Source: Nanobdellota archaeon (lineage in GTDB: Archaea > Nanobdellota > Nanobdellia > Pacearchaeales > GW2011-AR1). Taken from it: a stretch of DNA of 49,584 bases. The stretch's first letter is position 1; each line of letters starts with the position of its first letter. The DNA lies in assembly GCA_030647965.1 (NCBI GenBank), contig JAUSIT010000028.1, forward strand, positions 1 to 49,584, read 5' to 3'. The position numbers and the translations under genes are program-made. Shown in pieces: positions 4,501 to 43,910 of this stretch. Under the pieces are notes generated by a model. That model was not told the origin of the DNA and ran no database searches. It worked only from the letters and a program-made list of their open reading frames with translations.

Positions 4501-4645
4501 TCCCACCGCATCCCCAAAACCTTTTTAATCTTCTTGAAATTAGTGAGTATATCATGTTAAAACATCCTAATAAATATCAAACAGGTAAAACCATTATTTA
4601 TCTTGTGCGTCACGGTGAGAGAATACATATTCCTGGAACTCCCCC
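4501..4645 (+). repeat. Right direct repeat (promoter and 5' end of intact phosphatase)
   Basis: Partner of 736-880. It includes the TATA-like CTTTTTAAT (4521-4529, about 29 nt before the ATG at 4554). The two copies are not identical (about 94% by hand count), and most coding differences change amino acids. The copies have therefore diverged since duplication, or one came in from a related strain. Confidence 0.85.
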
Positions 4646-5138
4646 ACCACATGATTTTGGCTTGAGCAAAAAGGGAATAAAACAAGCCAAAGATGTTGCT
4701 AAGAAATTTGTTAAAATAAAGGAGGAAGTTGATGCTCTTTATACTAGCCCAATGAAAAGAGCATTTGAAACAGCTGTTGAAATTGGTAAGAAAATAAATA
4801 AAAAACCAATAGTTATTAAGGGTTTAGAAGAGATTACTAAAATACTTGAAAAACCTAAACTTTTTAATAAAAACTATTGGGGGCAGAGAATAAAGTTTAG
4901 AAAAAAACAAAAAATATTTAATGAGCTTCTTAAAAATAATAAAGGCAAGGTAATAATCTTAGTAGCTCATGGAAGATTAAATAGGATGCTTCTTGGAAAA
5001 AAGCTTGGGCTTTCGCATAAAGCCAGCAATGTTTTTGATTCACATAACTGCCACATAACTATTGCTAGTTTTAAGGGTCAAAAGTTAGATTATATTCATT
5101 GTGTTAATAGTAAAGAGCTGATTAACATACAAGATTAA
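4554..5138 (+). CDS. Histidine phosphatase (phosphoglycerate mutase-like) family protein
   Basis: A 194-residue branch-1 histidine phosphatase. The catalytic motif LVRHGER places the phosphorylated His at residue 20. ALYTSPMKRAFETA is the second Arg-containing motif, and VAHGR (H139) supplies the second catalytic His. Family members hydrolyse phosphate esters through a phospho-His intermediate; the substrate cannot be read from the sequence. A truncated copy of its 5' end lies at 788. The ATG at 4554 fits a leaderless start with the TATA box in the right repeat. Confidence 0.9.
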   Translation: MLKHPNKYQTGKTIIYLVRHGERIHIPGTPPPHDFGLSKKGIKQAKDVAKKFVKIKEEVDALYTSPMKRAFETAVEIGKKINKKPIVIKGLEEITKILEKPKLFNKNYWGQRIKFRKKQKIFNELLKNNKGKVIILVAHGRLNRMLLGKKLGLSHKASNVFDSHNCHITIASFKGQKLDYIHCVNSKELINIQD

Positions 5139-12992: not shown

Positions 12993-13049
12993 TATGAAAA
13001 ATAAAAATTTTTCAAATACTCGCTTGTGGAGGACAAGCTTCGTATAATG
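12991..13049 (+). promoter_or_regulatory. Twin-hairpin leader of uL24 with GGAGG in a loop
   Basis: Hairpin 1: GAAAAAT (12996-13002) / ATTTTTC (13007-13013). Eight nt later hairpin 2: GCTTGT (13022-13027), loop GGAGG (13028-13032), ACAAGC (13033-13038). The ATG follows at 13047, 14 nt after GGAGG. The same arrangement with identical spacing is at 15301-15361 before uL6. Confidence 0.75.
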
Positions 13050-13538
13050 AAACAAAAATTCAGTATGAAATGGAGATCAAGCAAGCAACCTCGAAAACAG
13101 AGGAAATTCATAGCAAATGCTCCAATGCATATTAAAAGAAAAATGTTAACAGTTACTCTTGAAAAAGAATTAAGAAAAAAATATGGAAGAAGAAATATTG
13201 AAGTAAGAAAAAATGATGAAGTAAAAATCATGACAGGAAAATTCAAGAAAAAACAAGGAAAAGTTATTGAAGTTAATGTAAAAAAAATGAAAATATATAT
13301 TGAAGGAATACAAATTACAAAAAAAGAAGGAACAAAAGTGGGAGTAGGAATCCATCCTTCAAACCTGAAGATTATTTCATTAAATACAGACGATAAAAAA
13401 AGAATGAAACAAAGAAATGAGAAGAAAACAGGAGAAAAGACTGAAAATAAAAACGAAAAGAAAATGGAAAATAAAATAAAAACAGAAAAAACTCAAACTA
13501 AACAAACTGGAGAACAAAATGCACCTAAAAAGAAATAA
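13047..13538 (+). CDS. rpl24: Ribosomal protein uL24 with charged C-terminal tail
   Basis: A 163-residue uL24. The archaeal N-terminus KFSMKWRSSKQPRKQRKF fixes the ATG at 13047; an in-frame GTG at 13026 would add MEDKLRI. The KOW core is DEVKIMTGKFKKKQGKVIEV and GTKVGVGIHPSNL. About 50 C-terminal residues are low-complexity Lys/Glu/Thr/Asn, unlike a standard uL24. It overlaps eS4 by 20 nt. It is one of the first proteins to bind nascent 23S rRNA. Confidence 0.96.
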   Translation: MKQKFSMKWRSSKQPRKQRKFIANAPMHIKRKMLTVTLEKELRKKYGRRNIEVRKNDEVKIMTGKFKKKQGKVIEVNVKKMKIYIEGIQITKKEGTKVGVGIHPSNLKIISLNTDDKKRMKQRNEKKTGEKTENKNEKKMENKIKTEKTQTKQTGEQNAPKKK

Positions 13539-15300: not shown

Positions 15301-15361
15301 AATATGAAAATTTCATTAAATTTTCAATTACTCGCTTGTGGAGGACAAGCTTTGTACCATG
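15301..15361 (+). promoter_or_regulatory. Twin-hairpin leader of uL6 with GGAGG in a loop
   Basis: Hairpin 1: GAAAATTT (15306-15313) / AAATTTTC (15318-15325). Eight nt later hairpin 2: GCTTGT (15334-15339), loop GGAGG (15340-15344), ACAAGC (15345-15350). The ATG follows at 15359, again 14 nt after GGAGG. Hairpin 2 is identical to that before uL24. Hairpin 1 differs in both arms but still pairs. Confidence 0.75.
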
Positions 15362-15904
15362 AAACGAGATATTGAAGAAATTATAGAAATCCCAGAAGGC
15401 ATTGAACTTAGTTTGAACAATTTTGAAATAATTGTAAAATCAAAGGGTAAAGAATCAAAAAAAGCATTTGTTTTGCCTAATACAATTAAAATTGTAAAAG
15501 ACAATAAAATATTAAAATTAATTGCAAAAAATTCAACAAAAAGAGAATCAAAACTAATTGGAACAACTGTTGCACATATAGAAAATATGATTAATGGAAT
15601 GAATGAAGAATTTGAATATAAATTAGAAATATGTAATGTACACTTTCCAATGAATGTCAAAGTTGAAGGAAATAGAATGATAATTAAGAATTTTTTAGGC
15701 GAAAAAGTTGACAGAATTGCAAAAATACTGCCTGGAGTTAAAGTAGAAGTTAAAGGAAACAAAGTAGATATAACTTCACATAATAGAGAAGCTGCAGGAC
15801 AAACAGCTGCAAATGTTGAAACAGCAACAAAAGTTAGAGGAAGAGATAGAAGAATTTTCCAAGATGGAATATTTTTAACAGAAAAATGTGGGAGGAAGAT
15901 ATAA
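15359..15904 (+). CDS. rpl6: Ribosomal protein uL6
   Basis: A 181-residue uL6. MKRDIEEIIEIPEGIEL matches the archaeal N-terminus and sets the ATG at 15359; an in-frame GTG at 15338 would add MEDKLCT, the same kind of extension as in uL24. The body shows two related alpha/beta repeats and the C-terminal VRGRDRRIFQDGIFL segment that contacts 23S rRNA near the sarcin-ricin loop. It ends in TAATG, shared with eL32. Confidence 0.96.
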   Translation: MKRDIEEIIEIPEGIELSLNNFEIIVKSKGKESKKAFVLPNTIKIVKDNKILKLIAKNSTKRESKLIGTTVAHIENMINGMNEEFEYKLEICNVHFPMNVKVEGNRMIIKNFLGEKVDRIAKILPGVKVEVKGNKVDITSHNREAAGQTAANVETATKVRGRDRRIFQDGIFLTEKCGRKI

Positions 15905-21259: not shown

Positions 21260-22072
21260 TTAAGAAAAATCCTTTAAATTTTGTTTTGCTTTTTTTATAA
21301 AATCGTTGTAATTTAAAATTCCAAACTCAGAAACAACTCCTGAAATAAATTTTTTTTCAACTAAATCAAATGCAGGATTTAAAACTTCAATATTTTTATT
21401 ATGTTTATTCCAGATTTCTTTTGCACTTCTAAATTCTATTTTTACTTTTTTAGCGTATTTTAAACTCATTCCGCAAGAATAAGCAGGAATTTTATGTAAA
21501 TGAGATATTTCAGCATACATATTTGTTCCAACTTTATTTACAACTCCTTTTTTCAAAAAAGCATCTGCTCCAAATAAAAATAAATCACATTTTTTCAAAG
21601 AGTAATCTACTGCACTATCTGGAACATGGATTACTTTTATTCCTGCTTTTGCCAAATCATTTGCAGTTTGTCTTCCCTGAAGCAGAGGTTCTGTTTCTGT
21701 ATTATAAACAACAAAATTTTTCTTTTGCTTTTTTGCTTGTTTTAATATATTTATTACAGAAGTTGAATGGCAGTGAGTAAAAACATTCATATCATTCTTT
21801 ATTAGATTTGAACCATATTTTGAAATTTTTTCATCTGAATTTTTTAAATAAGAAAATAATTTTTTAGCTGATTTTTTCTTATCTTTGAATTTTAATAAAA
21901 ATTTTATAGAATTTTGAAGCATGGGTTCTGTAGGCCTTGCTTTTAGAATTTTTTCTGCAGAGTTTCTGTCTGGCTGAAGCAAATATGCATTTATCCCTTC
22001 TCTAGCTATATTATTTGCACCTTGTATTTTAATATCTTTAATATCTTGAATAATCCTATCAAACCTCTCCAT
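21260..22072 (-). CDS. eIF2B alpha/beta/delta-like protein, possible ribose-1,5-bisphosphate isomerase
   Basis: A 270-residue member of the eIF2B/MtnA-like family. Candidate catalytic residues for ribose-1,5-bisphosphate isomerase are present: Cys101 in FTHCHSTS and Asp170 in LFGADAFLKKGVVNKVGT. ETEPLLQGRQTANDLAKAGI and the N-terminal ARPTEPMLQN are family motifs. In archaea this isomerase feeds the AMP phosphorylase/form III RuBisCO route, often kept in DPANN genomes, but neither partner is in the window. An aIF2B-type regulatory role is the alternative. ATG 22072 (MERF) is chosen: a TATA box (22093-22101) lies 27 nt upstream. Confidence 0.75.
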   Translation of the reverse strand: MERFDRIIQDIKDIKIQGANNIAREGINAYLLQPDRNSAEKILKARPTEPMLQNSIKFLLKFKDKKKSAKKLFSYLKNSDEKISKYGSNLIKNDMNVFTHCHSTSVINILKQAKKQKKNFVVYNTETEPLLQGRQTANDLAKAGIKVIHVPDSAVDYSLKKCDLFLFGADAFLKKGVVNKVGTNMYAEISHLHKIPAYSCGMSLKYAKKVKIEFRSAKEIWNKHNKNIEVLNPAFDLVEKKFISGVVSEFGILNYNDFIKKAKQNLKDFS

Positions 22073-22142
22073 AAACAATATACTTCAAATAACTATAAAA
22101 GGTTTGCTGATGAAATGCTGAATTAAATATTCTATTAATGAT

Positions 22143-22283
22143 GCTCGCATAATTTGCACTTCGTTAAGATATTAAGTCGCCTAGCTGCTCCTAACTTTTA
22201 TTAATGATAAATCATTTTCTCATTATTTGATACAGTATTAATTATCCACATTTGCCGCCAGGCAAATCCATTTATCCTTGCAT
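22143..22283 (-). repeat. Mosaic intergenic repeat, copy 1
   Basis: On the minus strand it matches 28358-28491: TAGGAGC...GGCGACTT...AACGAAGTGCAAATTATGCGAG is shared at high identity. A more diverged part contains the hairpin ATTTGCC-TGGC-GGCAAAT (plus-strand 22250-22267). It lacks the nested 52-nt palindrome found in copies 2 and 3 and ends in GCGAGCATCA. It fills most of the 277-nt gap between two divergent genes, which holds no coding sequence that I can support. Confidence 0.75.
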
Positions 22284-22318
22284 CAGCAACATTATATACT
22301 CCAAAACGATTAGCCAAC

Positions 22319-22332
22319 ATTTAAAAATTAAA
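22319..22332 (+). promoter_or_regulatory. TATA box of the SpoIIM-family gene
   Basis: ATTTAAAAATTAAA is centred 23-26 nt before the ATG at 22349, consistent with a leaderless transcript. Confidence 0.5.
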
Positions 22333-22348
22333 TCAAACTTAAAGAAAG

Positions 22349-23206
22349 ATGATAGAGATGATAGTAAAGCCAAAAAGAGCTGAAAGAAGACCTTGGGAAA
22401 TGTTTTTTATAGGAATACTTTATGCATCTATTTCACTTTTGCTTGTAAGCTTTGTTTTTTCAAAAGATTCTGTTTTAAATCAATACGGGGGAATTTTAAT
22501 GATTACCTTTACTGTCATCTGTTCTCTACCATTTATGTATTATTTAATAAAATTAGAAGAAGGAAAAGATGTTGAAATTTCAAAAAGTGGGAGATTATTA
22601 AAAGAACATTCAAAAGCAATTAGTGCTTTAATTTGGCTTTTCATGGGTTTTGTTGTTGCATTTTCTTTTTGGTATTTGGTTTTGCCAGAATATACTCCTC
22701 AAAATTTTAATGCACAAATAAAAGTTTTTTGTGCAATTAATAATCCTGCTAATTTTGATTATTGCATACAACAACATGGAATTTCTTCTCCTGTAACAGG
22801 AAATGTTGCAAGACAGCAATTACTAATTAATATTTTTGCAAATAATATTTATGTTTTAATATTTACTGTTTTATTTTCATTAGCATTTGGAGCAGGGGCA
22901 ATTTTTGTTTTAGCATGGAATGCTTCTGTAATTGCTGCTGCAGTAGGTATTTTTGCAGAAAAAAGTTTAGTAAATCTACCTATTGGAATTTTAAGATATA
23001 TGATTCATGGAATACCTGAAATCGGAGCATATTTTATAGGGGCGTTGGCCGGAGGAATTATTTCAGTAGCAATAATTAGAAAAGACTTAGAAGGCGAAAG
23101 AATGTGGAGAATTTTACAAGATTCTTTATTACTTATGATAATTGCAATAGTAATATTATTTGTTGCAGCCTTAGTTGAAGTATATATTACTCCTAATTTC
23201 TTTTAG
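22349..23206 (+). CDS. SpoIIM (DUF95) family membrane protein
   Basis: A 285-residue protein with about six membrane segments. The first two lie near residues 20-65, a third near 88-112, then a large outside loop with two Cys (VFCAINNPANFDYCIQQHG), then three more. The core ILIFTVLFSLAFGAGAIFVLAWNASVIAAAVG and IPEIGAYFIGALAGG are typical of archaeal SpoIIM/DUF95 proteins. In Bacillus SpoIIM is part of a peptidoglycan-degrading complex; the archaeal function is unknown. Single-gene unit with its own TATA box. Confidence 0.85.
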   Translation: MIEMIVKPKRAERRPWEMFFIGILYASISLLLVSFVFSKDSVLNQYGGILMITFTVICSLPFMYYLIKLEEGKDVEISKSGRLLKEHSKAISALIWLFMGFVVAFSFWYLVLPEYTPQNFNAQIKVFCAINNPANFDYCIQQHGISSPVTGNVARQQLLINIFANNIYVLIFTVLFSLAFGAGAIFVLAWNASVIAAAVGIFAEKSLVNLPIGILRYMIHGIPEIGAYFIGALAGGIISVAIIRKDLEGERMWRILQDSLLLMIIAIVILFVAALVEVYITPNFF

Positions 23207-23250
23207 ATTTAGAATAAACTCCTATGAATTATTAATTTCTTGGGTCTTTA

Positions 23251-24243
23251 CTATCCTTCAATTCTTCTGTATGAACAGTTTCCTTTATTGTTTTCAGGCC
23301 TGTGACAAGGAAATTCCTCAAGAATTTTTTTGCTTAAATCAGATATTAAATCTCGTTTCATATTACCAACTATAGTTTCATTGCCTACACATGGGCTTAC
23401 ATCCCCGTTTCCATATATACACATATGCTCAACACACGGACTTGTTCTAAAATTACTATATATTGGGTGAATAAATCCATATTCAGAATCAACTCTTTTT
23501 ACTATCTCATTTATTCGATCAATTTCATTTTGATTTAAAACAAGACTTCTGTTAAAACTATCGCCAGTACATCTTCCTGCAGGTACATAAGTACAAAATA
23601 CAACCCAAAAATTATTATCCCGGCAATATCTTAATGTCTGTTCAACTTCATGCACATTTTTTTTGCTAACAACCATATCAAAACCTATTCTAGTTGTACC
23701 ATCTTCTTGAGTTTTATTAAAACCATGTTCAACTAGTTTTTTAATTGCTTCATTTCTTTGTTGAAAATATTTTCCAATTTTGTCTCCAACAAGCCAATTT
23801 TGATATTCAGAATTAAATAAACTGTCACATTTTGGGTATACGCTTGCACCAGAATCATATAATCTTTTTACAAATTCATCGTCTCTTAATTTTGTTGCGG
23901 CATCTGTAAATACAATCGGCACAAGGCCTGAATCTCTTGTATATTTCATTATTTCAAAAAAATTCTTATCGATTGTAGGCTCTCCTTCACCCAAATAATC
24001 AATTGCTTTTACATGAGACATTTTTGAAATCTGATTTATCGTATTTTTTATTTCACCAAAATCTAAAGTTCTTTTTTTCTTGTCAGTAAAACAATGAAAG
24101 CAATTATGAGGACATTCATGGGTCATTATTCTTGCATCTATTACTGAATTTGGCCCGAATTGCCATCCATTTAGGACTGCTCCAATTCCAATTGGAACCT
24201 TTCCTAATCCATAATATTCTTTTTCTGTAAGTTTTCTTTCCAT
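23251..24243 (-). CDS. Radical SAM protein with SPASM-like C-terminus
   Basis: A 330-residue radical SAM enzyme: the 4Fe-4S motif C44-x3-C48-x2-C51 (ECPHNCFHC), the GEGEPT segment that contacts SAM, and further Cys near the end (SPCVEHMCIYGNGDVSPCVGN, then FPCHRP...GNCSYRR). The latter look like an auxiliary cluster-binding SPASM/twitch region. Substrate unknown. It stands apart from the glycan cluster, convergent with the SpoIIM gene and divergent from the Lrp-like regulator, whose promoter region it shares (24244-24353). Peptide or nucleotide modification are possible roles. Confidence 0.85.
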   Translation of the reverse strand: MERKLTEKEYYGLGKVPIGIGAVLNGWQFGPNSVIDARIMTHECPHNCFHCFTDKKKRTLDFGEIKNTINQISKMSHVKAIDYLGEGEPTIDKNFFEIMKYTRDSGLVPIVFTDAATKLRDDEFVKRLYDSGASVYPKCDSLFNSEYQNWLVGDKIGKYFQQRNEAIKKLVEHGFNKTQEDGTTRIGFDMVVSKKNVHEVEQTLRYCRDNNFWVVFCTYVPAGRCTGDSFNRSLVLNQNEIDRINEIVKRVDSEYGFIHPIYSNFRTSPCVEHMCIYGNGDVSPCVGNETIVGNMKRDLISDLSKKILEEFPCHRPENNKGNCSYRRIEG

Positions 24244-24322
24244 TTTATTTTTAATCCTATTTATTTGTTGGGCATAGAATTATAGATAAAACCTTGCTTG
24301 TAAATTTTTATCAAAATAACAA

Positions 24323-24332
24323 AATTTAAATA
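24323..24332 (+). promoter_or_regulatory. TATA box of the double-Lrp gene
   Basis: AATTTAAATA is centred 26 nt before the ATG at 24354, a clear leaderless arrangement. Confidence 0.6.
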
Positions 24333-24353
24333 CTAAATGTTACTATGATATAA

Positions 24354-25349
24354 ATGGTTTTAAAACTTGACACAAAAGATTTAAGGATTCTAGCAGAACT
24401 AGACAAAAACGCCAGACAGTCAAACCGCAAGATTGGAAAAAAAGTTGGTTTAAGCAAAGAAGTTGTGAAATATAGAATTGACAAACTTATTGAAAATAAA
24501 ATTATAGTAAGATTTCATACTATAACTAATTATTTCAAATTAGGAATAATGAAGTTCAAACTTTATCTAAGACTTACAAATATAAATAAAAAGAAAATAG
24601 AAGAAATTGCTAATTATTTTAAGAATAATAAAACAACTGAATGGGATGTTTTTTGCACAGGACGGTGGGATATAATTATAGGTTTCCTTGTGCATAATGT
24701 TAATGAATTCGATGATGAAATACAAAATGTAATGAATAAGTACTCAAAATATATTCAAGAAAAAGCAGTTACAACTACTCTTCATCTTGTTCATCAGGAA
24801 AGAGGATTTCTGGGCAAAGGAAAAAATCCCCCTATTTTTCATACATTAAAAGATAAAAAAGAAGATATTGATAATATAGATTTGGAAATATTAAAAATTC
24901 TTGCAAATAATGCGAGAATGCCTATAATAGATATAGCTGAAATAATAAAAACCACTCCAAGAATAGTCCAATATAAAATCAAGCAATTAGAAAAGAAAGG
25001 GATAATACTTGCATATAAAGCTCATCTTAATCCAAAGCAAATTGACAGGATTTTCTGCAAAGCAATTCTTTATCTTACGAATCTTACTCAAGAAAAAGAA
25101 AAAAAATTTATTTCTTATGCGTCTTCAATTCCTGATGTAGTCTGGCCTCAGAAAGTTTTAGGAGATTGGGATTTTGAGCTTGATTGTGAAGTTGAAAGTT
25201 ATGATCATTTTCAGAATATCTTACTTGACCTAAAAGAAAAATTTCCAGAGATCATAAAGGATTACGAATTCTGCATAGTTTCAGAAGAATACAAGCTTGA
25301 TTTTTTTCCCGGGGCTTACAGAGAGAAGTTAATTAATAAAGAACTTTAG
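24354..25349 (+). CDS. Tandem Lrp/AsnC-family transcription regulator
   Basis: A 331-residue protein made of two Lrp/AsnC units. Unit 1: HTH at about 3-55 (LDTKDLRILAELDKNARQSNRKIGKKVGLSKEVVKYRIDKL) and a RAM-like domain to about 155. Unit 2: HTH at about 170-225 (IDLEILKILANNARMPIIDIAEIIKTTPRIVQYKIKQLEKKG) and a second RAM-like domain to the end. Lrp-family proteins bind amino acids or other small ligands and act as dimers or octamers. Fused double forms occur in archaea. It may control the divergent radical SAM gene or act globally. Confidence 0.9.
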   Translation: MVLKLDTKDLRILAELDKNARQSNRKIGKKVGLSKEVVKYRIDKLIENKIIVRFHTITNYFKLGIMKFKLYLRLTNINKKKIEEIANYFKNNKTTEWDVFCTGRWDIIIGFLVHNVNEFDDEIQNVMNKYSKYIQEKAVTTTLHLVHQERGFLGKGKNPPIFHTLKDKKEDIDNIDLEILKILANNARMPIIDIAEIIKTTPRIVQYKIKQLEKKGIILAYKAHLNPKQIDRIFCKAILYLTNLTQEKEKKFISYASSIPDVVWPQKVLGDWDFELDCEVESYDHFQNILLDLKEKFPEIIKDYEFCIVSEEYKLDFFPGAYREKLINKEL

Positions 25350-25408
25350 AAAAACGAGTTAAACTAAATCACCGAAACTATTTTAAATCAAACAATTTTG
25401 TATTTTTC

Positions 25409-25543
25409 ATGGCAAAATACAATTGCAGTACTTGCGGTTATTCTACAACAAGCGGCAGACAACCAAAAAAATGCCCTTATTGCAGCAGAGAAAACACAAT
25501 GGAAGAGGAAGAAAACGCAGAAGAAATTCTAAGCAGATCTTAA
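25409..25543 (+). CDS. Mini zinc-ribbon protein
   Basis: A 44-residue protein (ATG 25409, TAA 25543) with two CxxC knuckles: YNCSTCGYS and KKCPYCSRE, followed by an acidic tail EEEENAEEIL. This is the rubredoxin-like/zinc-ribbon pattern common in archaeal small proteins. A TATA-like box TATTTTAAATC about 24 nt upstream supports expression. It might be a partner or adapter of a larger complex; the sequence does not say which. Confidence 0.75.
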   Translation: MAKYNCSTCGYSTTSGRQPKKCPYCSRENTMEEEENAEEILSRS

Positions 25544-25582
25544 AATCCAGTGTTATTAAAATAGTACTAAAAACTTAGAGAA

Positions 25583-28327
25583 ATGGATAAACAAGAAAAT
25601 ATTATTGATGAGAGGAAAAAGAACTTTATTTCTTTTTTAAAAAAAGAATATGTTTGGGTAGGGATTTTATTAATTATTGCACTTATTCTTGGAATTTATA
25701 TAAGAGCCCTTCCAATGACAGACCACGGAGGAAATCCTGGCTTATGGGATATTACCACTAATAGCTGGACTTTAGGTCCTGATTTAGATCCGTTTTTATT
25801 TTTAAGATATGCAAAAATAATAGCAGAAACTGGCTCTTTGCCATCAATAGATATGTTTAGAAATGTTCCTTTAGGTTTTGATACTTCTTTAGAAACTCCT
25901 TTAATTTCCTATGGTATTTTTTGGTTATATTCTTTTTTACAAATTTTTGATTCACAAACTAGCATAGATTATGCAGCTGTTTTATTTCCAGTTATTATGT
26001 TTGGATTTACAATTATATTTTTCTTTTTGTTTGTAAGAGAAATTTTTACAAGAAAAGGAGAAAAAGAAGAAAATATTAAAGCAAATATTATTGCATTAAT
26101 TTCAACTTTTTTAATGATTGTTTCTCCTGCATTTTTATCAAGAACTGTTGCAGGAATTCCTGAAAAAGAATCAGCAGGTTTTATGTTTATGTTTTTAGCT
26201 TTTTATTTATTTATAAGTGCATGGAAATCTGAAAAATTAAGAAATACGATTATTTTAGGAGCTTTAGCAGGAATTGCAACTGCTTTAATGGGTTTATCCT
26301 GGGGGGGAGTTATGTATTTATTTATTGGAATTGGAATTGCAAGTTTAATTGCTTTTACACTAAATAAAATTCATAAAAAAGAGTTTATTGTTTATTCATT
26401 ATGGATGTTTTTTTCTTTTATAACAATATTATTATTTTCAAATAAATATCCAATAAGGTCTCTTTTAGAATCAATGGACACAGGTTTAGCATTTTTGGTT
26501 TTCTTTATACTTATTGTTCATTTTGCTTTATGGAATACTAAATTAAAAGATATTAATTTTATAAATAAAATTAAACTTCCAAAAAACATAGTTTCAGTTA
26601 TTATTGCTTTTATTTTATTATTTTTTGTTATTATTATTTTATTTGGGCCTTCATTTGTTTCTGATAAAATTAATGTAATTAATCAACTGATGTTTCAGCC
26701 AGTTACTGGAAGATGGAATACTACTGTTGCTGAAAATCGACAGCCATATTTTACAGAATGGGTTGGAAACTTTGGACCATTTTTAAAAAATATACCTGTT
26801 TTATTCTGGTTATTTGCAATTGGCTCTGTTGTTTTATTTAGAAAAATACTAAATAAAATAAATAAAAAAGATGCTTGGATTTTAACATCCTCTTATGTAT
26901 TTTTCTTTTTAGGAATGGTATTTTCAAGATATGCTGCTCATCCAAGTTTATTTGATGGAGATGGTTTATTGAGTAAATCATTTTTTTATATTTCTGCATT
27001 ATTGCTAATTGGTTTAGCAGTTTATTATTATTTAAAATATAATAAAGAAGAAAATAAGGGTTTGGAAAAAATAGATTTTGAATATATATTATTATTTTCA
27101 TTATTTATTTTATGTTTATTTACAGCAAGAAGTGCAGTTAGATTAATTATGACCTTATCCCCTATTGCAACAATTTTTGTTGGTTATCTTATAATAGAAT
27201 CTATTGACCAATTTAAAAAAGCAAAAGATAGCACCATGAAAACAATAATGGCAATAGCAGTTATAATTCTTTTATTATTAAGTATGTTTGTTTTTTGGAA
27301 TTTTTATAATTCTATAAAAGCAGAGTCTTATAATTTTGTTCCATCAGGATATACTCAACAATGGCAAAAAGCAATGGATTGGGTAAGAATAAACACTCCA
27401 ACAGATGCAGTATTTGCACACTGGTGGGATTATGGATATTGGGTTCAATCAATAGGAAATAGAGCAACTGTTACAGATGGAGGAAATGCCATTGCATACT
27501 GGAACTATTTAACAGGAAGATATGTTTTAACAGGAGATAATCAACATGATGCTTTAGAATTTTTACATACACATAATGCAACTTATTTATTAATTGATTC
27601 AACAGATATTGGAAAATATGGAGCTTATTCAAGTATTGGGAGTGATATAAATTTTGACAGATATTCATGGATACCTGTTATGGTTTCAAATCAAAATGAA
27701 ATACAAGAAACAAGTGAAGGAATTACAAGAGTTTATCAGAGCCCAAGTTATATTGATGAAGATATAAATTATAATTTAAATGGAACAAAAATATTCTTGC
27801 CTTCTGGAAAAGCTGCATTAATCGGAGTTATTTTAGAAATTAAAAATCAAAATGGTTCCATGGTTTTTAAGCAACCGGACGCAGTATTTTTTAATAATAA
27901 TCAGCAAATAAAAATTCCTTTAAGATATGTTCAGTATAAGGGGCAACTTTTTGATTATAAACAAGGATTAGAAGGAACATTTAGAGTAACTGAAAATATA
28001 ATACAAGGGCCACAAGGAGTTCAGGTAGATAGTAGTGGTGCAGGAATTTATATTTCACCAAGAATAATGAGGGGAATGTTTGCACAAATTTATCTTTTAA
28101 ATGATCCTTATAAAAAGTTTGACAGCCTTAAACTAGCTTATTCAGAACCAAGTCCTGTTGTTGCAAGTTTAAGATCCCAAGGAATGAAAGATATTGATGA
28201 TTTTGTTTATTTTAATGGAATCCAAGGACCTATAAAAATCTGGACAATTAATTATAAAGGCAATGAAGTTGTTAACCCAGAATATCTTTTAAGAGCACCC
28301 CCTGCAAATATTACTTGGCAGTTTTAA
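25583..28327 (+). CDS. aglB: AglB/STT3 oligosaccharyltransferase
   Basis: A 914-residue GT66-type enzyme. About 12-13 membrane segments fill residues 25-580. The first-loop acidic motif is LGPDLDPFLFLR (67-70); a second loop motif is SRTVAGIPEKESAGFMF. The signature WWDYG is at 614-618 (AHWWDYGYWVQSIGNRATVTDGGN) in the C-terminal domain. It transfers a lipid-linked glycan onto Asn-X-Ser/Thr of secreted proteins on the outer face of the membrane. A TATA-like box about 25 nt before the ATG suggests its own promoter. It opens the glycosylation region that runs to the window end. Confidence 0.95.
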   Translation: MDKQENIIDERKKNFISFLKKEYVWVGILLIIALILGIYIRALPMTDHGGNPGLWDITTNSWTLGPDLDPFLFLRYAKIIAETGSLPSIDMFRNVPLGFDTSLETPLISYGIFWLYSFLQIFDSQTSIDYAAVLFPVIMFGFTIIFFFLFVREIFTRKGEKEENIKANIIALISTFLMIVSPAFLSRTVAGIPEKESAGFMFMFLAFYLFISAWKSEKLRNTIILGALAGIATALMGLSWGGVMYLFIGIGIASLIAFTLNKIHKKEFIVYSLWMFFSFITILLFSNKYPIRSLLESMDTGLAFLVFFILIVHFALWNTKLKDINFINKIKLPKNIVSVIIAFILLFFVIIILFGPSFVSDKINVINQLMFQPVTGRWNTTVAENRQPYFTEWVGNFGPFLKNIPVLFWLFAIGSVVLFRKILNKINKKDAWILTSSYVFFFLGMVFSRYAAHPSLFDGDGLLSKSFFYISALLLIGLAVYYYLKYNKEENKGLEKIDFEYILLFSLFILCLFTARSAVRLIMTLSPIATIFVGYLIIESIDQFKKAKDSTMKTIMAIAVIILLLLSMFVFWNFYNSIKAESYNFVPSGYTQQWQKAMDWVRINTPTDAVFAHWWDYGYWVQSIGNRATVTDGGNAIAYWNYLTGRYVLTGDNQHDALEFLHTHNATYLLIDSTDIGKYGAYSSIGSDINFDRYSWIPVMVSNQNEIQETSEGITRVYQSPSYIDEDINYNLNGTKIFLPSGKAALIGVILEIKNQNGSMVFKQPDAVFFNNNQQIKIPLRYVQYKGQLFDYKQGLEGTFRVTENIIQGPQGVQVDSSGAGIYISPRIMRGMFAQIYLLNDPYKKFDSLKLAYSEPSPVVASLRSQGMKDIDDFVYFNGIQGPIKIWTINYKGNEVVNPEYLLRAPPANITWQF

Positions 28328-28350
28328 GTTTTTAATCTTTCAGATATAGC

Positions 28351-28566
28351 GTGCTAAGGCAAGATATATGGAATTTCTTAGCAGAAATTACGATTTATTA
28401 ATATTGAAATGAAAATGATTTTAGAGAATTAATAAAAGTCTAGGAGCCGCGAGGCGACTTTATATTCTAACGAAGTGCAAATTATGCGAGCGAGCCGTAG
28501 CGAGCGAAAAAGTTTTGCTCTTCTATCTTGCGTTACTTATGCAAGAGCAAAACTTTTTGAGCATCA
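28351..28566 (+). repeat. Mosaic intergenic repeat, copy 2 with nested palindrome
   Basis: Starts with GGCAAGATATATGGAATTT (28358 on), which matches copy 3 (43723 on). It includes the hairpin AATTTCT-TAGC-AGAAATT (28372-28389). It continues with the segment shared with copy 1 (about 28430-28491) and then carries a 52-nt palindrome (28507-28558). It ends GAGCATCA like copy 1. It occupies the 276-nt gap between aglB and the next gene. Confidence 0.8.
28507..28558. repeat. Nested 52-nt palindrome (first instance)
   Basis: Stem AAAAAGTTTTGCTCTT (28507-28522) pairs perfectly with AAGAGCAAAACTTTTT (28543-28558) around a 20-nt loop containing CGTTACTTAT. Its relative is at 43825-43876. Copy 1 of the host repeat lacks it. 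Confidence 0.8.
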
Positions 28567-28568
28567 GA

Positions 28569-28583
28569 TATAAATTTAAAAGC
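28569..28583 (+). promoter_or_regulatory. TATA region of the GlcNAc-1-P transferase gene
   Basis: TATAAATTTAAAAGC is centred about 28 nt before the ATG at 28604 and lies just beyond the end of repeat copy 2. Confidence 0.55.
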
Positions 28584-28603
28584 TATAAGTTATATTTTAA
28601 GAT

Positions 28604-29629
28604 ATGAATTCAATACTGTTTATATCAATATTAGTGAGCTTTATTGCAGCACTATTAATCATGCCAAGATGGATTAGAAAGTGCAATAAAATCGGGCTTT
28701 TATGGGAAGATATGAATAAATACAAACACCCTAAAAATGTTGCTGCTTCTGGAGGAATCGTAGTTGTAATGGCCTTTATTTTAGGAGTTTTATCTTATGT
28801 GGCAATAAGAACTTTTATTATTAATGATTTAAATGGAATAAGTTTGCAGATTTTTGCATTGCTTAGTGTTGTTTTAATTTTAGCAATTGTTGGCTTGACA
28901 GATGATTTACTTGGCTGGAAACATGGAGGATTATCTGCACAATTTAGAATTTTTTTAGTTTTATTTGCTTCTATTCCTTTAGTTGTAATAAATGCAGGAA
29001 CAAAGCTTATTGAAATTCCTTTTTTTGGAGAAATTGAATTAGGATTATTATATCCTTTAATAATTATTCCACTAGGAATAACTGGCGCAACAACGGTCTA
29101 TAATTTTTTAGCAGGTTTTAATGGACTAGAAGTTGGACAGGGAATTATAATTATTTCATTTTTATCATTTATATCCTATGTTATGGGTTCTGCATGGCTT
29201 TCTTTAGTTGGGCTATGTATGGTTGCTTCTTTGTTAGTTTTTTATTATTATAATAAACATCCTGCAAAAGTTTTTCCAGGCGATGTTTTAACATATTCTA
29301 TTGGAGCAGTAATTGCATGCATGGCCATTTTAGGAAACTTTGAGAGAATAGCTATTTTTGTGTTTATTCCATATATTATAGAATTTATATTAAAATCAAG
29401 AGGCAATTTAAAAAAACAATCTTTTGGAATTCCAAATAAAGATGGAAGTTTAGAAATGCCATATGATAAAATTTATGGACTAACCCATCTTTCAATTTTT
29501 ATATTGCAAAAATTTAAGAAAAAAGTTTATGAAAAAGATGTAACTTATTTGATATTTTCATTCCAAATAATAATCTGCTTGCTTGCTTTAGTAATCTTTA
29601 AAGAATCTTTATTTAATGTAGTTGTTTAA
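28604..29629 (+). CDS. UDP-GlcNAc:dolichyl-phosphate GlcNAc-1-phosphate transferase-like (GT4/MraY-WecA family)
   Basis: A 341-residue membrane enzyme with about ten helices. Family motifs: GLLWEDMNKYKHPKNVAASGG near the N-terminus, GLTDDLLGWKHGGLS (the Asp-Asp pair), FLAGFNGLEVGQG (N-x2-D/E-like site), FPGDVLTYSIGAVIA, and SRGNLKKQSFGIPNKDG in the last cytoplasmic loop. It would load the first sugar phosphate on dolichyl phosphate, starting the lipid-linked glycan that AglB transfers. First gene of a run of eight same-strand genes. Confidence 0.9.
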   Translation: MNSILFISILVSFIAALLIMPRWIRKCNKIGLLWEDMNKYKHPKNVAASGGIVVVMAFILGVLSYVAIRTFIINDLNGISLQIFALLSVVLILAIVGLTDDLLGWKHGGLSAQFRIFLVLFASIPLVVINAGTKLIEIPFFGEIELGLLYPLIIIPLGITGATTVYNFLAGFNGLEVGQGIIIISFLSFISYVMGSAWLSLVGLCMVASLLVFYYYNKHPAKVFPGDVLTYSIGAVIACMAILGNFERIAIFVFIPYIIEFILKSRGNLKKQSFGIPNKDGSLEMPYDKIYGLTHLSIFILQKFKKKVYEKDVTYLIFSFQIIICLLALVIFKESLFNVVV

Positions 29630-43688: not shown

Positions 43689-43910
43689 GATGCTCGCTTC
43701 GCTCGCATATGATGTGCCTGATGGCAAGATATATGAAATTTTCTAGCAAAAATTACGATTTATTAATAATTCTGATACAGAATTTCTGGGTAGGATTTTT
43801 ACTAATAAATCGTTAGGAGACGCCAAAAAGTTTTACTCTTACAATAAGTAACGATAATAGAAGAGTAAAACTTTTTCAGTCGACTTAGTATTATCACAAA
43901 GTGCTAAATT
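43689..43910 (+). repeat. Mosaic intergenic repeat, copy 3 with nested palindrome
   Basis: Begins TGATGCTCGC, the reverse complement of the end of copy 1. GGCAAGATATATG...TTACGATTTATTAATA (43723 on) matches copy 2, including the hairpin AATTTT(C)-TAGC-(A)AAAATT (43737-43754). The 52-nt palindrome (43825-43876) interrupts the part that reads ...GGAG-CGACTT... in copies 1 and 2. The rest matches copy 2 up to GTGC near 43903. It fills the gap between two convergent genes. Confidence 0.78.
43825..43876. repeat. Nested 52-nt palindrome (second instance)
   Basis: Stem AAAAAGTTTTACTCTT (43825-43840) pairs with AAGAGTAAAACTTTTT (43861-43876). The 20-nt loop reads ATAAGTAACG in the middle, the reverse complement of the loop core CGTTACTTAT of 28507-28558. 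One stem pair is A-T here and G-C there. Confidence 0.8.

Follow-up and report, generated by a model that had tools for sequence, protein, structure and literature searches.

What is a hairpin-forming repeat that recurs in three intergenic gaps of one archaeal contig, its stem still paired while its letters have changed: a functional RNA, or a piece of mobile DNA? The contig (C16; "the window", 49,584 nucleotides) belongs to a 982-kb genome assembly that is 85% complete. The host SecY is at most 74% identical to its counterparts in Candidatus Pacearchaeota and related uncultured archaeal MAGs, and this ~1 Mb genome most closely resembles Pacearchaeota (DPANN) MAGs.

Three window copies of a dispersed intergenic repeat

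A first-pass annotation of this DNA had claimed that the three gaps are homologous. A similarity search bears this out: positions 28340–28570 match 22143–22288 on the minus strand (E 5e-21) and 43723–43768 (E 3e-12), and 107 stretches of the genome match the same query. Direct reading of the sequence found the three hairpins (H1) where they had been reported (Table 1). As had also been described, copies 1 and 2 have different letters on both sides of three pairs (2, 5 and 7), and copy 3 departs at a fourth, pair 6.

The repeat, here called element A, is indeed a dispersed intergenic family of about 80 copies. Pieces of the three window copies match 81 clusters in the genome, the H1 module occurs at 61 places and the module of a second hairpin, H2, at 79; among 65 copies tested, 62 lie wholly between ORFs. 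All copies were analysed on the stretches around matches, which cover ~245 kb of the genome. Within these, GCGAGCATCA, which had been proposed as an element end, is present only at the window copies; it is not a feature of the family and was rejected as the end of element A. Copies 2 and 3 also contain what resembles a second, long hairpin; this is a distinct palindrome nested in the element, here called B.

Table 1. Element A copies in the window, with their hairpins, nested palindromes and neighbouring genes
Feature	Position	Strand	Description
Element A copy 1	22143–22288	-	Belongs to the subfamily that lacks the long outer inverted repeat
Copy 1 H1	22250–22267	-	ATTTGCC-TGGC-GGCAAAT
Copy 1 H2 region	22174–22191	-	GGAGCAGCTAGGCGACTT; one stem pair mismatched
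Copy 1 neighbour	21260–22078	-	IF-2B-family gene
Copy 1 neighbour	22349–23206	+	SpoIIM-family gene
Element A copy 2	28351–28566	+	Includes nested palindrome B; lies between STT3-like and glycosyltransferase-4 genes
Copy 2 H1	28372–28389	+	AATTTCT-TAGC-AGAAATT
Copy 2 H2	28443–28458	+	G-GA-GCC-GCGA-GGC-GA-C
Palindrome B in copy 2	28507–28558		52 bp, nested; G..G flanks
Element A copy 3	43689–43910	+	Includes nested palindrome B
Copy 3 H1	43737–43754	+	AATTTTC-TAGC-AAAAATT; loop-closing pair is C-A
Copy 3 H2, 5' part	43816–43824	+	GGAGACGCC; hairpin split by B
Palindrome B in copy 3	43825–43876		52 bp, in the H2 loop; C..C flanks
Copy 3 H2, 3' part	43877–43884	+	CAGTCGAC
Copy 3 neighbours			Convergent glycosyltransferase/NTP-transferase and radical-SAM genes

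Element ends and target-site duplication

Full-length copies of element A measure 169–194 bp when nested palindromes are subtracted, and they are bounded by terminal inverted repeats, TGTTAAGTAAAC...GTTTACTTAACA. No such repeats were seen in the window copies, which form a shorter subfamily without the long outer repeat and with less clear ends. Evidence for a 5-bp target-site duplication comes from the full-length copies only: in 17 copies, chosen by end similarity and total length with the flanks ignored, there are 47 matches among 85 bases where 28.5 are expected, a value reached in 1 of 50,000 permutations. When all 49 offsets were scanned, none of 2,000 permutations reached the observed maximum, and an earlier list of ends gave the same register. 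With a looser, automatically drawn list of 29 ends, which took in internal ends called in error, the signal was weaker (60/145; 377 of 20,000 permutations as high). Four or five of the five target bases match in only 7 of the 17 full-length copies, and exact duplications were found in two copies (ATAAC and GTATC). Together, the inverted ends and the duplication support the link to transposition that had been suggested for the hairpin-bearing repeat.

A few copies of element A carry additional inserts. The same extra insert occurs in two of them, between TATAATCAAAAA and ACGAAGTGC (contig C6, 37315–37422; contig C34, 37685–37824).

Pairing and covariation of the hairpins

Stem maintenance extends to many additional copies, and the first-pass annotation thereby withstands the refuting test that it had set for itself. 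Across 50 copies of H1, 94.0% of the pair cells hold standard pairs, compared with 77.0% after shuffling. Changes on both sides occur at all seven pairs, in 59 cells where shuffling gives 15.1 on average; these cells are inherited and hence not independent. Because none of 500 shuffles gave as many, and controls in which the partner was slid by one to three columns gave at most five, chance is excluded as the origin of the H1 covariation. The copies contain 14 distinct well-paired H1 stems, if stems with one of the seven positions unpaired are included. H2, which has the form GCC-GNNA-GGC inside tandem G·A, covaries like H1: its 41 copies are 96.3% paired, with 17 both-side cells against 3.1 after shuffling. 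For both alignments nested B had been excised from some sequences, while the majority were free of B.

Conservation is not confined to the paired letters. The H1 loop (TNGC) and the GNNA loop and tandem G-A of H2 are also conserved, and TAT and GAAGTGC are invariant within element A. Compared with shuffled sequences, a hand-made full-length consensus folds with z-scores of −6.6 as RNA and −5.6 as DNA. A third small hairpin was recognised by eye between the left end and H1, and the mirror symmetry of the inner halves is weak (17.5 versus 2.3, sd 5.8).

The stem has therefore been kept through compensatory change, as the first-pass annotation had stated. Its further step, that the structure must have been selected, goes beyond the data, because template-switch correction of hairpins can also yield paired changes (PMC8794818).

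A second palindromic family nested in element A

Palindrome B is ~52 bp long (AAAAAGTTTTGCTCTT...AAGAGCAAAACTTTTT) and was called 65 times genome-wide. It lies mostly inside element A, in the H2 loop, beside or within H1, or between AACG and AAGTGC. The bases flanking B are identical in 37 of 65 cases, compared with 23.2 expected, which fits a 1-bp duplication. Where B recurs at the same position of element A, this may reflect one insertion that later spread with its host element. The arms of B show paired changes too, with the sixth position changing from G-C to A-T, and covariation therefore extends beyond element A. One copy of B (contig C28, 18513–18692) itself holds an insert of ~128 bp, which takes the nesting to a third level.

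Search for a transposase and for relatives of the element

Four transposase families were searched in the 85%-complete assembly. Y1_Tnp (PF01797), the family expected if an IS200/IS605-type enzyme acted in trans as had been proposed, has no match there, while 5 of 14 control genomes match. DDE_Tnp_1 and rve are absent from the assembly, and TnpB gave a single weak match below the cut-off. This assembly offers no convincing partner of the IS200/IS605, TnpB, DDE_Tnp_1 or rve kind; the 5-bp duplication signal also speaks against the IS200/IS605 mode of insertion, which proceeds without target duplication. A search with the end pattern for a longer paired, autonomous element returned just the copy ends and scattered weak matches.

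Among 200 genomes of the order, the family was found in this one and in none of the other 199. A search of 36 relatives gave nothing beyond weak matches at E ~0.006. A degenerate pattern of element A had no match in GTDB, nor did the B pattern in viral contigs. The gap holding copy 1 is 270 bp long here, and the syntenic gaps of the closest relatives measure 63–212 bp (computed from match ends); a model of the element run over 52 loci of relatives gave no match. These results point to a lineage-specific insertion.

Origin of element A and of its maintained pairing

We read element A as a MITE-like, non-autonomous DNA transposon, present at ~80 intergenic sites, moved in trans and with its fold kept for mobility; we assign this reading a probability of roughly 0.62. 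MITE-like describes it because it is intergenic and multicopy, has inverted ends, a target duplication and a stable fold, and is absent from relatives. Dispersal, ends, target duplication, maintained hairpins and the nesting of B are the steps observed. A transposase supplied in trans would have moved the element, and a DNA hairpin, single-stranded or extruded, may matter for mobilisation, so that pairing would be retained. Diverging active lineages would then have kept the fold while their letters drifted, and palindrome B appears to have entered element A repeatedly, often into hairpin loops. The pairing is probably maintained by DNA-level selection for mobility.

The covariation could also arise without selection in an element that is nevertheless mobile, if template switching during replication at quasi-palindromes copies one arm onto the other, a mechanism known to make and repair hairpin stems (PMC8794818). 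Several H1 stems are set apart by two or three pairs at once, and the unrelated palindrome B has paired arm changes as well, both of which fit such copying. The number of broken pairs is flat with copy divergence (Spearman 0.02), which agrees with template switching, though it does not discriminate it from selection. We consider this account a serious rival, though rather unlikely: template switching alone predicts no constraint on the TNGC and GNNA loops, the tandem G-A, TAT or GAAGTGC, yet all are conserved, and an excess of G-T over A-C mismatches is no simple prediction of arm copying. That excess is seen on the strand that carries the GNNA loop, with 16 G-T to 5 A-C mismatches in H1 and 12 to 3 in H2 over all copies, and 6 to 0 and 8 to 1, respectively, in a stricter B-free set. 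It also bears on whether the hairpins act as RNA. For H1 the GNNA-loop strand is minus, for H2 it is plus, so that a single transcript would gain in one hairpin only. The asymmetry helps a little in favouring DNA over RNA, but the counts are few, the copies are related and C-to-T change with a strand bias could produce the same pattern. If the copies had spread as a structured RNA family with a regulatory or trans-acting role and been retained for that RNA function, this would account for the strong covariation and the stable RNA fold, and H2, with its GNNA loop and tandem G-A, is RNA-like in appearance. However, the wobble asymmetry would require H1 and H2 to function on opposite strands, copies show no orientation bias towards genes (17 on the same strand, 19 on the opposite) and no preference for any gap class, and Rfam 15 left the element unmatched at the gathering cut-off over the window and at E ≤ 1 over 22000–28700. 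The inverted ends and target duplication fit DNA insertion, and other genomes of the order are without the element. A functional RNA in cis, one of the two roles first suggested for the hairpin, is thus not supported, and we regard an RNA family as an improbable explanation.

REPINs, paired REP sequences that depend on RAYT (Y1) transposases, are a model for single-stranded hairpins moved by a Y1 (HUH) enzyme; like element A they are extragenic, dispersed, hairpin-forming mobile units with compensatory changes, and they insert into existing copies (PMC3116915). An origin of this REPIN or IS200/IS605 type is very improbable here, since the 85%-complete genome is without a Y1_Tnp match while five control genomes have one, and since element A has inverted ends of the ordinary type and duplicates 5 bp, which points to staggered-cut, DDE-like insertion. 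Within the MITE-like reading, element A may combine these ends and this target duplication with DNA hairpins that are strand-specific, each half holding one and the two lying on opposite strands, and that its transposase must read, with B targeting hairpin loops. We hold this to be quite unlikely; if true, it would make this a DPANN transposition system intermediate between classical cut-and-paste and hairpin-reading systems.

Comparison with known repeat families

Bacteria carry intergenic repeats of modular build and conserved fold, the ERIC, BOX and Correia elements, some of which hold internal insertions. Compared by description only, element A differs from them in its archaeal host and in its modules. 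MITEs are described from bacteria and several archaea in passages of a review, where prokaryotic examples resemble element A in being short, non-coding, AT-rich, intergenic and multicopy, with a stable predicted fold, inverted ends and a target duplication that wanes with age; among the archaeal hosts named in these passages there is no DPANN archaeon (PMC10969869). Element A differs from MITEs in that no parent insertion sequence was found in the 85%-complete assembly, in its strongly covarying internal hairpins and in the second palindromic family nested inside it. A literature search returned no paper joining MITE with DPANN, and none joining Pacearchaeota with intergenic repeats and transposases.

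For a reduced DPANN genome of ~1 Mb, some 80 MITE copies and about 65 B palindromes weigh heavily, and they raise the question of what transposase mobilises elements of this sort in DPANN. With many covarying copies in one genome, the family is a good case for weighing selection against template switching in mobile hairpins.

Other features of the window

Near one end of the window, a direct repeat of ~145–150 bp (736–885 and 4501–4650; 92% identity over 129 bp) holds the 5' end of a gene; judged by eye, the beginning of this gene resembles a histidine phosphatase (LVRHGER). The two repeats bracket ~3.6 kb with a UvrD-like helicase gene and a nucleotidyltransferase-like gene, a segment that looks like an integrated island. 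Inside it, positions 2441–2510 on the minus strand match the Rfam family RF02984 (DUF3800-X RNA) with 58.4 bits, above the gathering threshold of 38.2.

A shared leader, TTACTCGCTTGTGGAGGACAAGCTTCGTA, forms a perfect hairpin with the ribosome-binding GGAGG in its loop. It was not found by a regular expression run over the loci of relatives. In this genome it lies at 13006–13053 and 15318–15365 on the plus strand of the window, and also at contig C15, 8377, and contig C28, 23132. Three of the genes that it precedes, at a distance of 5–8 nt from the ATG, encode proteins that by eye resemble ribosomal proteins L24, L6 and L10e/L16. A near-copy, the fourth occurrence, precedes another gene, and the arrangement could be a shared translation control.
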